Assembly: GCA_025353105.1 (NCBI GenBank)
Contig: JANXRG010000063.1
Span: forward strand, 1 to 55,576
Direction of reading: 5' to 3'
Source of the DNA: Verrucomicrobiota bacterium
Lineage (GTDB): Bacteria > Verrucomicrobiota > Verrucomicrobiia > Chthoniobacterales > SZAS-18
Length of the DNA stretch: 55,576 nt
The first letter of the stretch is position 1. Each line of letters opens with the position of its first letter. The notes below the pieces were generated by a model that searched no databases, was not told the DNA's origin, and saw only the letters and a list, made by a program, of their open reading frames with translations. Positions 26,270-30,993 of this stretch are shown here, piece by piece. The translations under genes and the position numbers were made by a program.

Positions 26270-26458
26270 ATGAGTCAGACCTTGCAATGTATTACGGACG
26301 AGCACGGCGACCGCACCGCTGTCGTTCTTCCCATTGGTGAATACGAAAAATTGATTGAGGATTTGGACGACCTCGCCATCGTCGCCGAACGTCGCGACGA
26401 ACCCGTCATCGCTCACGACGCATTCCTCGCCGACCTCAAGCGCGATGTAGCTCTTTAG
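26270..26458 (+). CDS. Antitoxin of a RelE-type toxin-antitoxin pair
   Basis: A 62-residue protein with a prevent-host-death-like N-terminal half (EHGDRTAVVLPIGEYEKLIEDL) and an acidic, helical C-terminal half that would wrap the toxin (AERRDEPVIAHDAFLADLKRD). It is the immediate upstream neighbour of a RelE/ParE-like toxin frame, the usual order. It would bind DNA as part of the autoregulatory complex. The ATG at 26270 is the sole good start, without an evident Shine-Dalgarno sequence. Confidence 0.8.
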   Translation: MSQTLQCITDEHGDRTAVVLPIGEYEKLIEDLDDLAIVAERRDEPVIAHDAFLADLKRDVAL

Positions 26459-26459
26459 C

Positions 26460-26708
26460 ATTCAGTGGCGCAGTTCGACCAAGAAAGACATCCGTAGCTT
26501 GCCACGGCTTGAGGTGGCCCGAGTCGTCGAGGCCGTTAGTCAGCTCGTGAATGATCCTCATCCGCATGGGTTACAAAAACTCACAGGCTCCGAGCGCACT
26601 TACCGAATCCGCGTCGGAGATTACCGTGTTATCTACGAGATATTCGCAGATTCGCGCATGATCGAGGTTCAGCGCGTCAGGCATCGCAAGGACGTCTATC
26701 GCGACTGA
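26460..26708 (+). CDS. RelE/ParE-type toxin, start codon unclear
   Basis: The frame from ATT at 26460 reads IQWRSSTKKDIRSLP and continues through YRIRVGDYRVIYEI to RHRKDVYRD, the complete beta-alpha-alpha-beta core of a RelE-type mRNA interferase or ParE-type gyrase poison. The expected start would overlap the antitoxin end. An in-frame ATG does lie there (26445) but is followed at once by TAG (26448-26450). Expression therefore requires a rare ATT start at 26460 or the TTG at 26499, which removes the first strand and part of helix 1. The toxin may be inactivated by a codon-2 nonsense mutation while the antitoxin remains intact. Confidence 0.7.
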   Translation: MQWRSSTKKDIRSLPRLEVARVVEAVSQLVNDPHPHGLQKLTGSERTYRIRVGDYRVIYEIFADSRMIEVQRVRHRKDVYRD

Positions 26709-26736
26709 CCGCACCGCCTGACCTCAACTCGCCGGG

Positions 26737-26814
26737 TCACGCGGAATCCCGGGGAGCCGCCGCGGCGGGACCCGCGATCCAGCCGCTGGTCCAGGCGGAT
26801 TGAAAATGATACCT
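26737..26814 (-). pseudogene. Displaced 3' end of an HI0933-type flavoprotein gene
   Basis: On the minus strand this fragment encodes FQSAWTSGWIAGPAAAAPRDSA and a TGA stop. The intact flavoprotein gene at 29216-30472 ends FQSAWTTGWIAGHAAAAKASA and a TGA stop. The nucleotide match is roughly four in five over about 60 bases, with the same orientation. The rest of the gene is absent here. The geometry, intact gene then foreign segment then orphan 3' end, is what insertion at a gene's 3' end leaves. Confidence 0.75.
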
Positions 26815-26899
26815 GCGTGACCCGCGAATTCTTCGTTCTGCGCATCTCTGAATCGAGGGACTGCCTGTCCATTTTGCGCTGCCGTTGAAAACCCCCCAT

Positions 26900-26999
26900 T
26901 TTGTCCTAATAGCAAAGCCCTTTCTTCTGGAATTTCGTTGCAGACCGGACGGATCCGTACCATTTGCAAAGTGCTTTTTCGCCGTGCTATTAGGACAAA
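26900..26999. repeat. 15-bp perfect inverted repeat, 70-nt spacer
   Basis: TTTGTCCTAATAGCA (26900-26914) and TGCTATTAGGACAAA (26985-26999) are perfect complements. The segment is AT-richer than its neighbours. The rest of the 329-bp gap (26709-27037) holds only the flavoprotein remnant; I see no gene. The repeat could mark ends of an excised or tiny insertion, or an operator for the downstream pair. Confidence 0.75.
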
Positions 27000-27037
27000 C
27001 CGTCCTCATACTCCCTGTTAGGCGGAGGCCCGAACGA

Positions 27038-27310
27038 ATGACGATTGAAGCACTCATCGCGGCAGCCTCTCAGAGTAAGAGGCTCTCGCCTCACGAGGTT
27101 GACGCATTTTGCGCAAGAGAGACGCTCACGGTTGAGGCATTCTGCGACGCATTTGCTCGCAAGATCGCTGTTGGCTACTTCGGAGGTGAGTTCACTTTTT
27201 CATTCTGCGACAACGCCATAAACGCTCTCATCGCTCGACCTAGATACGAATGCGGTCGCTTGCGAACATCTTTCCGGATAACTTCTGAGGAAACATGGAG
27301 CGTCGCCTGA
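27038..27310 (+). CDS. Small protein of unknown function
   Basis: A 90-residue soluble protein (MTIEALIAAASQSKRLSPHE, then FGGEFTFSFCDNAINALIA). It has predicted helices and no signal or membrane segment. I do not recognise the family. Its stop lies 16 bases inside the cyclase gene, so translation of the two is probably coupled. Base composition is AT-richer than the window average, as in the cyclase gene. The frame is open upstream to 26885, but the ATG at 27038 avoids the inverted repeat. Confidence 0.55.
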   Translation: MTIEALIAAASQSKRLSPHEVDAFCARETLTVEAFCDAFARKIAVGYFGGEFTFSFCDNAINALIARPRYECGRLRTSFRITSEETWSVA

Positions 27311-29133
27311 CTGCCATCCTTGCCGCGGACGTAGCGGGATTTAGCCGTTTGATGGAGGCCGACGAGTCCGGCACGCTCGCGGCGTTGAAAACGCTCCAGA
27401 CGGAGCTAATCAACGGGAAGATTGCGGAGCACCGGGGACGAACGGTCAAGCTGACCGGAGATGGGATGCTGGTGGAATTTCCCAGCGTCGTGAACGCGGT
27501 TGCTTGCGCCGTCGACGTGCAGCGTAAGATGCGGGAACGAAACGCCGACGTGCCGCGGGATCACAGACTCGAGTTGCGCATCGGCGTTAATCTCGGCGAT
27601 GTGATCGTGGAGGGTGACGATATCTTCGGCGACGGTGTAAATCTGGCGGCTCGGCTCGAGAGCATTGCGATGCCGGGCGGCATCACGATTTCCAACTCGG
27701 TCCGTGATCACGTCGGCAACCGACTTGAACTCATTTTCGAGGACTTGGGCGAACGAAAGCTGAAGAATATCGAGAAGCCCATTCGTGTTTACAATGTCAT
27801 CGTTGACGAGGTCGCAGCGGGACAAACCAAGCAGACGACTTTGCCTGACGAACGACCGTCGATCGCCGTATTGCCCTTCAATAGTATGAGCGGCGACCCT
27901 GAGCAGGAGTATTTCAGCGATGGGATCACCGAGGACATCATCACGGATCTTTCAAAAATCTCAGGGCTCTACGTCGTCGCGCGCCACACCGCCTTCACGT
28001 ACAAAGACAGACCTGTAAAAGTGCAGCAGGCGGGCAAGGAGCTTGGTGTTACGTTTGTCCTGGAAGGAAGCGTGCGCAAGGCGGGCTCGCGCGTCCGGGT
28101 TACCGGACAACTCATTAACTGTAAAGATGGCAGTCATGTTTGGGCCGACCGCTTTGATCGCGATCTAACCGATATCTTCGCGATCCAGGACGAGATTACT
28201 CATGCCATCGTGGAACAATTGAAGGTAAAGCTTTTGCCGGGAGAGAAGAAGTCCATCCGACAAGCACCCACGACGAATGTCGAAGCCTACACCTATTACT
28301 TGAGGGGTCGGCAATTTTGGCACCGGCACTCGAAATTCTATTACGAACGGGCGCGCCGCATGTTCGTCAAGGCGGTGGAACTGGATCCCCATTATGCGCG
28401 CGCCTATGCCGGTATTGCCGATTGTGATTCCCTCCTTCTTCTGCACTACAATGTGGATGTAGGGATCGAAAACATTCTGACCAACGCGGCAAAGGCGCTC
28501 TCCTTGGACAGTGAGCTTGCCGAGGCACATGCATCGCGAGCGGTTGGGCTTTTCATTCAGCAGCGACGTGAAGAAGCGGTGGCGGAATTTGAACGAGCCA
28601 TCGCGCTCGACCCTAATTCTTTTGAGGCCCATTACCTCTATGCGCGCGCATGCGTGCAGCAATCCAAACTAGAACGAGCGGCGATCCTCTTCGAGCGAGC
28701 TGCCGAAATCAAGCCGGACGATTACCAATCGGTATGCCTACTGATTGCCATCTACCGGTCGCTGGGACGGGAAGAAGATGGCAAAGCTGCCGCACGCAAA
28801 GGCATCAAATTGGCTGAACGTGAGCTGACTCTCCACCCCGAGGATTCAAGGCCAGTCCAACTAGGGGTGGGCGCACTCATTGAACTGGGGGAAGTGGAAC
28901 GCGCCCGGGAATGGATGTCCCGAGCCCTGGCGTTGGACCCGGATGATCCCATTACCCAGTACAACGTTGCGTGCGGCTATGCGCAGCTGGGCGACGTTGA
29001 CGCGGCTTTCGATCTGCTGGAAAGCGCCCTCCCGCGCGCTCCAGAGAAGAGGGAGTGGATTAGACACGATTCCGATTTTGACTCCATCAGGCGCCATCCA
29101 CGCTATCAGAAAATACTCGAAATGATCGGGTAG
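27295..29133 (+). CDS. Class III adenylate/guanylate cyclase with TolB-like and TPR domains
   Basis: A 612-residue protein. The cyclase domain (1-170) opens MERRLTAILAADVAGFSRLM, with a metal-binding aspartate, then VKLTGDGMLVEFPS with the second aspartate and FGDGVNLAARLES. A TolB-N-like domain follows (about 185-300: PSIAVLPFNSMSGDPEQEYF, DGITEDIITDLS). The remainder is TPR-like (AVELDPHYARAYAGIADCD; RAIALDPNSFEAHYLYARAC; RALALDPDDPITQYNVACGY). This architecture is abundant in rhizobia and other Alphaproteobacteria. With the AT-richer composition and the flanking 3'-end duplication, it suggests horizontal acquisition. No cAMP receptor or phosphodiesterase gene is nearby. It would make cAMP in the cytosol in response to an unknown partner bound by the TPRs. 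Confidence 0.88.
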   Translation: MERRLTAILAADVAGFSRLMEADESGTLAALKTLQTELINGKIAEHRGRTVKLTGDGMLVEFPSVVNAVACAVDVQRKMRERNADVPRDHRLELRIGVNLGDVIVEGDDIFGDGVNLAARLESIAMPGGITISNSVRDHVGNRLELIFEDLGERKLKNIEKPIRVYNVIVDEVAAGQTKQTTLPDERPSIAVLPFNSMSGDPEQEYFSDGITEDIITDLSKISGLYVVARHTAFTYKDRPVKVQQAGKELGVTFVLEGSVRKAGSRVRVTGQLINCKDGSHVWADRFDRDLTDIFAIQDEITHAIVEQLKVKLLPGEKKSIRQAPTTNVEAYTYYLRGRQFWHRHSKFYYERARRMFVKAVELDPHYARAYAGIADCDSLLLLHYNVDVGIENILTNAAKALSLDSELAEAHASRAVGLFIQQRREEAVAEFERAIALDPNSFEAHYLYARACVQQSKLERAAILFERAAEIKPDDYQSVCLLIAIYRSLGREEDGKAAARKGIKLAERELTLHPEDSRPVQLGVGALIELGEVERAREWMSRALALDPDDPITQYNVACGYAQLGDVDAAFDLLESALPRAPEKREWIRHDSDFDSIRRHPRYQKILEMIG

Positions 29134-29215
29134 TGGAAATGATAGTCCGCGTGAGCTCAACTTTGTAGTGCAACACATGAGAATGGTCAAGGAATCACGC
29201 GCCCCATCCTGCGCT

Positions 29216-30472
29216 TCACGCTGACGCCTTCGCGGCCGCGGCGTGGCCCGCGATCCAACCGGTGGTCCAAGCAGATTGGAAATTGTAGCCGCCGGTGATG
29301 CCGTCGATGTCGAGAATTTCGCCGGCGAAATAGAGGCCGGGACAACGCCGGCTCTCCATCGTGCGAACGTCCACCTCGCGCAGGTTTACTCCGCCGCAGG
29401 TGACAAACTCCTCCTTGTTCATGCTCTTGCCGCGCACCTGAAATTCACCCGCGGTCAATTGTTCCGCGAACGCCAGAAGTGCTTCCCGCTCCACGTGCGC
29501 CCAGCGCGTTTCCGCCCGGATTCCCGCCGCGAGCGCGAGCCGCTCCCACAGCCGCGCAGGAATGGCGAACGCGGGATCACCGGCGACCAGCTTCTTCGCC
29601 TTCGTTTCCTTCATCGTGCGCAGGTCGCGCATCATGTCGTCGCGCGTCTGCGCACCAACCCAGTTGACGCGAATGGAAAAATCATAGTCGCGTTTGTGCA
29701 TCCAGCGCGCTCCCCACGCAGAAAGTCGCAGAATCGCCGGCCCGCTCACGCCCCAGTGCGTGATCAACACCGGTCCCGTCTCGTCGAAGGCGGCATCCAC
29801 CACCCGCGCCCGCGCCCGCTCCACCGCCACCCCGGCCAATCCCTTCAGGCGTTCGTCCTCAATGTGAAACGTGAAAAGCGACGGGACCGGCTCGCTCAAG
29901 GTGTGACCGAGGGCCGCGGCAACGGCCGGACCGCCGGTCGCCGCGCGCGGTCCGCCCGTCGCGAGAATTATGTGGTCGGCATCCAACGTGCGATTTCCAT
30001 CCAACGCGAGGCGGAAGCCGGCCGCGGAACGGTCGGCGCGAATCAGGCCGGTTCGCGTGAAGATTTCCGCGCCGCTCGCGCTGGCCGCATCCATCAAGCA
30101 TTGGATGATCGTCTCCGAGCGATCCGTGATCGGAAACATGCGGCCGTCCGCCTCCGTCTTGAGTTTCACGCCCCGCGCCTCGAACCACGCGATCGTGTCG
30201 GTCGGTTGGAAATGATGCAGCGGCCCGCGTAGTTCCCGCCCGCCGCGCGGATAACACGTCACTAGCACGCCCGGATCGAAGCAGGCATGCGTGACATTGC
30301 AGCGACCACCACCGGAGATTTTCACCTTGGCGAGCAACTGTGATGATTTCTCGAGCAGCACGACCGGTCCGCCATCGGCTTCCGCGCACGCGATCGCCGC
30401 AAAAAAACCCGCCGCGCCGCCCCCGACGACCGCCACGCGGCAGGTCGAAGGGAGATCACGATCGGCGGACAT
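29216..30472 (-). CDS. HI0933/BaiN-family NAD(P)/FAD-dependent oxidoreductase
   Basis: A 418-residue flavoprotein of the HI0933 (YhiN/BaiN, aminoacetone-oxidase-like) family. The N-terminal FAD motif is VAVVGGGAAGFFAAIACAEA. The family-specific KVKISGGGRCNVTHAC follows, then HIILATGGPRAATGG. The C-terminal half ends with GLYFAGEILDIDGITGGYNF and QSAWTTGWIAGHAA, the second FAD-binding site. The physiological substrate of the family is not settled. The ATG at 30472 (MSADRDLPS) is chosen over 30493. Its 3' end is duplicated at 26737-26814. Upstream lies the palindrome block at 30.5-31.0 kb, so the promoter must be within or beyond those repeats. Confidence 0.9.
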   Translation of the reverse strand: MSADRDLPSTCRVAVVGGGAAGFFAAIACAEADGGPVVLLEKSSQLLAKVKISGGGRCNVTHACFDPGVLVTCYPRGGRELRGPLHHFQPTDTIAWFEARGVKLKTEADGRMFPITDRSETIIQCLMDAASASGAEIFTRTGLIRADRSAAGFRLALDGNRTLDADHIILATGGPRAATGGPAVAAALGHTLSEPVPSLFTFHIEDERLKGLAGVAVERARARVVDAAFDETGPVLITHWGVSGPAILRLSAWGARWMHKRDYDFSIRVNWVGAQTRDDMMRDLRTMKETKAKKLVAGDPAFAIPARLWERLALAAGIRAETRWAHVEREALLAFAEQLTAGEFQVRGKSMNKEEFVTCGGVNLREVDVRTMESRRCPGLYFAGEILDIDGITGGYNFQSAWTTGWIAGHAAAAKASA

Positions 30473-30508
30473 GAGGATTGAACATAGTCGCAAGGCGCAG
30501 GCGCGGAC

Positions 30509-30993
30509 AGGTGGATCGGCTCGTCCCGAGCAGCTGGCAATTAGGTAGGGATGACCGTCCCCGGTCGTCCCAAATCCGGCGCTTGCGGCGTCTCACGCGG
30601 AGTGGAGCAAGGCATGTCGGTTTGCCGCATGGGTGGCGAATTATTTCCGCGATGTTTGGGACGTTTCGGCGAAAGGTCCCTCCCAAACAGACAACGCTCC
30701 CGGAGGTCGGGGGAAGATAACCGTTCGGGGACATGGCTGGAGGAACGATCCGAAAGGCGCGCCCGCAGACAGGTGGAACGCGACCGCGCGTTGGCGAAAA
30801 CATTTGCAGCCCGCGCCCGCGGGCTGCCACAACCCTTGGCATCGGCTGCGGGACCAGCCGATCCACCTTGGCGCGAGAAGGCAACACGTGGCTTGAGCGA
30901 GCAATTGGTAAATCACGTCCGCACGATGTTTGGGACGTTTCGGCGAAACGTCCCTACCCATTTGCCAACGCGCCCGGCGGTCGCGTTCCACCT
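30509..30993. repeat. Composite block of nested palindromic repeats
   Basis: The 546-bp gap 30473-31018 has no credible gene and is mostly repeats. AGGTGGATCGGCTCGTCCCG (30509-30528) faces 30849-30868 (19 of 20). AGGTGGAACGCGACCGC (30771-30787) faces 30977-30993 (17 of 17). GGGACGTTTC-GGC-GAAACGTCCC (30932-30954) is a perfect 10-bp hairpin. Its direct copy at 30650-30684 has a decayed right stem. GGGATGACCG at 30548 pairs with CGGTCGTCCC ending at 30571. The hairpins share an outer frame of GGTAGGGA and TCCCAAA but differ inside the stem. They lie between the flavoprotein start and the end of cardiolipin synthase. Confidence 0.8.

Follow-up and report, generated by a model that had tools for sequence, protein, structure and literature searches.

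Among the described systems closest to the locus reported here are integrative elements that sit at the 3' ends of protein-coding genes, for example SGI1 in trmE (PMC8409611) and Tn5253, which integrates at an 83-bp attB in rbgA (PMC8571831). Our literature search otherwise returned only background on elements at gene 3' ends and on REP repeats. We analysed a 55,576-bp stretch of DNA (the window) from a soil-type verrucomicrobial genome, in which the 3' end of an HI0933-like flavoprotein gene occurs twice (Table 1). As in SGI1 and Tn5253, DNA that was probably acquired lies between direct copies of a gene end and the gene itself is complete; the length of the repeat is of the same order as that of the Tn5253 attB given in that source. 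The window differs from both systems in that no integrase was found, the segment is only about 2.4 kb, the repeat has decayed to 85% identity, and neither an empty site nor a mobile form was seen. The locus is a real but fairly ordinary acquisition scar whose donor has to be corrected from rhizobia, and it offers an old gene acquisition that can still be read in a poorly studied soil lineage.

Table 1. Coordinates of the features at the duplicated flavoprotein gene end (window positions).
Feature	Position	Strand	Basis or remarks
RelB-like / ParE-RelE-type toxin-antitoxin pair, outside the repeats, flanking the orphan	about 26270..26708	+	PF18506, PF05016, TIGR02385, phrog_1213
Left repeat: orphan, decayed flavoprotein 3' end	26737..26827	-	alignments; stop codon 26737-26739
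AT-rich interval between the tail copies, read as acquired insert	26828..29215		GC 0.51-0.57 vs 0.63 for the window
Perfect 15-bp inverted repeat (TTTGTCCTAATAGCA / TGCTATTAGGACAAA), arms 70 nt apart, before the 90-aa ORF	26900..26999		folding z -3.9
90-aa ORF, no family assigned	27038..27310	+	weak relatives only
Class III adenylate cyclase-TPR gene, 612 aa	27295..29133	+	Pfam, NCBIfam, PDB 3mr7, relatives, trees
Possible junction trace	29134..29162	+	matches 26801-26820, then 26722-26729
Right repeat: tail within the intact flavoprotein gene	29232..29307	-	alignments, one of 80% over 61 bp
Intact HI0933-like / TIGR00275 FAD-binding flavoprotein gene	29216..30493	-	425 aa; Pfam and NCBIfam

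The product of the intact gene matched Pfam PF03486 (HI0933_like; E 1e-71) and NCBIfam TIGR00275 (406 bits; cut-off 184), and it shared 63-66% protein identity with its counterparts in genus mates. A blastn search within the window aligned the tail of this gene with the orphan without gaps (26756-26807 vs 29232-29283; 84.6% over 52 bp, E 5e-10). The gapped alignment joined 26756-26827 with 29232-29307 over 76 alignment columns, and its score was matched by none of 500 mononucleotide shuffles and none of 3000 dinucleotide shuffles. The similarity spans about 21-26 codons on the same strand, and the orphan closes with a stop codon; the TGG motif found upstream in relatives is gone from the orphan. 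Across the 3.7-Mb genome, the orphan was the clear best second match to the tail (E 6e-10; next E 0.007). That next match, near the host's C20 cyclase, falls in a GC-rich Ala-coding stretch without a flavoprotein gene and was taken as chance. Searching the host genome for the flavoprotein recovered nothing beyond the intact gene, the orphan and, on C50, a second, distant homologue. The original prediction of an orphan copy of the last ~22 codons, lying in the same direction as the gene, was therefore correct in both coordinates and direction.

The interval between the two tails stands apart in base composition. Its left limit is the end of the orphan's tail homology and its right limit is the intact stop codon. 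GC content was 0.510 at 26828-27037, 0.527 in the small ORF, 0.565 in the cyclase gene and 0.512 at 29134-29215, compared with 0.649 in the flavoprotein gene and 0.629 in the whole window. The orphan tail (0.692) forms a GC-rich, host-like island between this interval and the AT-rich toxin-antitoxin pair (0.551).

Since the repeat is real and unique in the genome, and since the AT-rich interval exactly fills a repeat-insert-repeat geometry, we favoured the reading that this is an old acquisition scar, left when the cyclase segment entered the flavoprotein gene at its 3' end, with one event giving both the insert and the duplication (probability about 45%). The data show the duplicated tail, the change in composition between its copies, the tree position of the cyclase, and the age and host-lineage origin of the tails; what we infer is that a single event made both insert and duplication. 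An AT-richer segment of 2.3-2.4 kb, carrying the small ORF and the cyclase-TPR gene, would have come to lie at the end of the flavoprotein gene. The intact gene would have stayed complete through its 3' end, with the second copy of the tail pushed 2.5 kb downstream, as when DNA integrates at an attachment site located within the 3' end of a gene. The displaced tail would then have decayed freely, and the gene's own tail would have changed at synonymous sites. Nothing points to a function of the duplication itself.

The locus resembles integrative elements in that direct copies of the end of the target gene flank the segment (85% over 52 bp) and the gene is complete. A Pfam scan of 29 window proteins from the larger ORFs revealed no integrase, excisionase or transposase, so we do not place the locus among integrase-mediated integrative elements; no tRNA that could have served as an insertion target was found in the window, nor any member of a known RNA family. 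No exact att core could be drawn, because the repeat is only 85% identical. In the genus mates G001 and G002 the flavoprotein gene is present, and its neighbourhoods there share nothing else with the window. The ArsP permease-DUF1980 pair on the left flank is conserved in genus mates, and beyond that pair their loci did not match the segment; neither an empty site nor a syntenic relative of the segment was found at their flavoprotein and permease loci. Integrase-type integration thus fits the geometry and is unproven. The original prediction had attributed the arrangement to integration at the gene's 3' end. Its geometry held, as did, among the 29 proteins scanned, its statement that no integrase is present, whereas site-specific integration as the maker of the duplication was left unproven by the missing integrase, the 85% repeat, the lack of an empty site in a relative and a duplication of the same tail without cargo in another genome of the order. 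That case, the tiny cargo for an integrative element and the suggestive trace at 29134-29162, which favours two steps, also count against a single event.

The two tails are old. Both read FQSAW, with a shared derived residue, while 19 relatives of the subfamily read FQAAW. They differ at 9 of 51 core bases, and six of these nine differences are synonymous, compared with 2.2 expected under random change (p 0.005). Comparison with relatives places all three amino-acid replacements (N to H, T to S and H to P) on the orphan, and the intact tail shows synonymous changes relative to genus mates. The common FQSAW and the mostly synonymous differences indicate that the tails were copied long ago, in the host lineage itself or in one close to it. 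Read from these substitutions, the pattern fits a duplication within the host lineage, followed by constraint on the intact copy and decay of the orphan; alternatively, a tail may have been carried in by an element from a close relative.

An alternative that we judged somewhat less probable separates the two events. Local slippage or recombination mediated by repeats would first have doubled the flavoprotein tail (a unit of about 26714-26820) in tandem, with the cyclase segment entering later between the two copies, close to their junction. We searched for the tail in 213 genomes of the order, and one of them (G061:C53; L205 9483-9980, minus strand) carries the tail twice more, in tandem and in the same direction, directly downstream of its intact flavoprotein gene, with no cargo. 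The two cases agree in gene family, gene part and orientation, and in having orphan tails that decay beyond the stop of the intact gene. They differ in the cargo and in the spacers: GGGGACAGTCACC repeats separate the tails of G061 (8 matches in 15 kb vs 0.05 expected), and no such spacers were seen in the window segment. The window holds a suggestive trace of its own: in 29134-29162, a match to the end of the left unit runs into a match to its start, the order that a tandem junction would show. This chimera was matched in none of 3000 shuffles and none of 2242 control pieces; however, it was found post hoc, and a less biased split test gave 3 of 300, a probability of about 0.01. A 20-bp near repeat (26801-26820 / 29134-29154) is a possible target duplication of the later insertion and was reached by 4 of 3000 shuffles in chosen windows. 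We chose several tests only after viewing the data: the chimera at the junction, the narrow windows for the repeat, and the clade test. In addition, the regions after the two stops are otherwise little alike, and a separate insertion requires a second event that landed at the junction. The exact mechanism that made the scar is no longer readable.

The orphan could also be the last remnant of a complete second flavoprotein gene, either a paralogue or an old duplicate, that was largely deleted or gave way to the acquired segment. We considered this unlikely. The mostly synonymous differences look as if both copies had been partly under coding constraint; however, synonymous change in the intact copy alone can yield the same pattern. 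The other ~400 codons left no trace in the segment, and besides the intact gene and the orphan the search of the host genome gave only the distant C50 homologue. A genome of the same order (G092:C23; L206 5700-12580) does have two HI0933-like pseudogene fragments in the same direction, 6.4 kb apart, with several ORFs between them. These fragments are alike over about 245 bp. We rejected this locus as a twin of the window, as its fragments come from a different HI0933 subfamily and their similarity runs past the stop. Neither the extra tails of G061 nor those of G092 come with a recognisable element. A broader proposal, which we judged improbable, is that the 3' ends of these TIGR00275 flavoprotein genes are a recurrent hot spot in Chthoniobacterales, where tails duplicate and foreign DNA is captured without a recombinase of its own, for example by recombination involving dispersed palindromic repeats. 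If tail duplication, as in the window and G061, is recurrent, it would provide a small natural system for how gene ends duplicate and capture DNA.

In the favoured single-insertion reading, the cargo includes the cyclase gene. In its product, residues 7-166 form the cyclase domain; a TolB/CadC-like region comes next, and then TPRs. The domain matched PF00211 (E 6e-14) and PDB 3mr7 (E 4e-48), and it was aligned with 3mr7 and Ma1120. The motifs ADVAGF, KLTGDGM and DDIFGDGVNLAAR are present in the sequence; we take them to supply the two metal-binding Asp residues, the adenine-selecting Lys/Asp pair and the Asn/Arg transition-state pair. Having both the domain and the catalytic residues, the protein belongs to the class III nucleotidyl cyclases, and it probably makes cAMP. 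It was not assigned to the Pycsar system: the match to PycC was weak (22.9 bits), and the adjoining 90-aa ORF had no effector match in Pfam or PADLOC.

To trace the origin of the cyclase, we compared its relatives. Of the 213 genomes searched for the order Chthoniobacterales, 26 had full-length matches (E<=1e-120): 25 belong to family f8, and the remaining one is the host. The other six genomes of the host family f1 had none; with the host, this family is represented by seven genomes, and those six are drafts in many contigs. Identity over the whole length was 65-76% to the f8 relatives and 54-67% to alphaproteobacteria, mainly Rhizobiales. Plasmid matches were mostly rhizobial, with a best identity of 64%. 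Some of the f8 loci are identical to records of Chthoniobacterales and Verrucomicrobia/Spartobacteria MAGs; the name of the order is taken from such records matching same-order genomes rather than from classifying the host directly. In the trees, the alphaproteobacterial cyclases formed one clade (SH-aLRT 99) beside the verrucomicrobial ones, and the window cyclase grouped with f8 rows outside it; its nearest rows were all f8. A rhizobial donor was rejected, as forcing the window cyclase into the alphaproteobacterial group gave a p-AU of 0.005 in a test that ran on a quick tree and with a constrained group named after a first tree had been viewed.

The presence of many full-length relatives in f8 and their lack in the six f1 genomes support acquisition, and the host lineage probably acquired the cyclase. 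These results suggest transfer of a regulatory cyclase from one family of Chthoniobacterales to another, instead of an arrival from rhizobia. The segment between the tails had been described as foreign-looking, with a cyclase typical of rhizobia that was to be checked for best matches in Alphaproteobacteria. The foreign look was borne out by the AT-rich interval lying exactly between the tails and by the probable acquisition of the cyclase, and the family is indeed common in Rhizobiales; the rhizobial source was not upheld, since this copy groups with Chthoniobacterales, and the highest identities were instead to f8 relatives.

It is very improbable that the segment was inherited vertically within the host's family and lost from the sampled relatives. 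Only six other genomes of the family, all of them many-contig drafts, could be searched, and the host does encode distant paralogues of the same cyclase-TPR architecture (48% and 46%); however, no full-length match came from any of the six, the segment is AT-rich, and the nearest tree rows are all f8. We gave almost no credence to chance or an assembly artefact as the source of the tail similarity, even with a single assembly and a draft contig, as the E value and the 0 of 3000 shuffles apply to a copy on the same strand, 2.5 kb off and ending in a stop codon, and a misassembly is expected to yield a near-identical repeat rather than one of 85%.

The relatives differ from the window in their surroundings. 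At 81 cyclase loci, no flavoprotein tail lay beside the cyclase, and shared upstream DNA extended at most 34 bp from the cyclase start. The window cyclase adjoins the 90-aa ORF, and no such ORF was found beside the relatives' loci examined. The window gene is a single copy, whereas several f8 genomes have tandem arrays; at least two near-full-length cyclase-TPR genes stand in tandem at L198 (G144:C78), G126:C123, G130:C30 and G132:C248.

The 90-aa ORF had no match in Pfam, NCBIfam, PADLOC or PHROGs. Its relatives in the order are weak and confined to two f8 genomes, and a comparison with plasmids gave a single weak match. The inverted repeat in front of it is possibly an operator, a hairpin or a miniature element; as a dispersed element it was rejected, since neither the host genome nor any of 56 relatives yielded another exact copy.

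Two further observations concern the flanks. The toxin-antitoxin pair has the DUF1980 gene on one side and the orphan tail on the other. Its antitoxin gene and its toxin gene of the RelE/ParE fold stand in tandem, as in RelBE/ParDE modules, with the TIGR02385 match just over the cut-off; the pair may have arrived separately from the cyclase segment. Upstream of the flavoprotein gene, 30650-30709 and 30924-30983 are direct repeats of 85% identity, each with the palindrome GGGACGTTTCGGCGAAACGTCCC or a near copy of it, and together they form a REP-like element.
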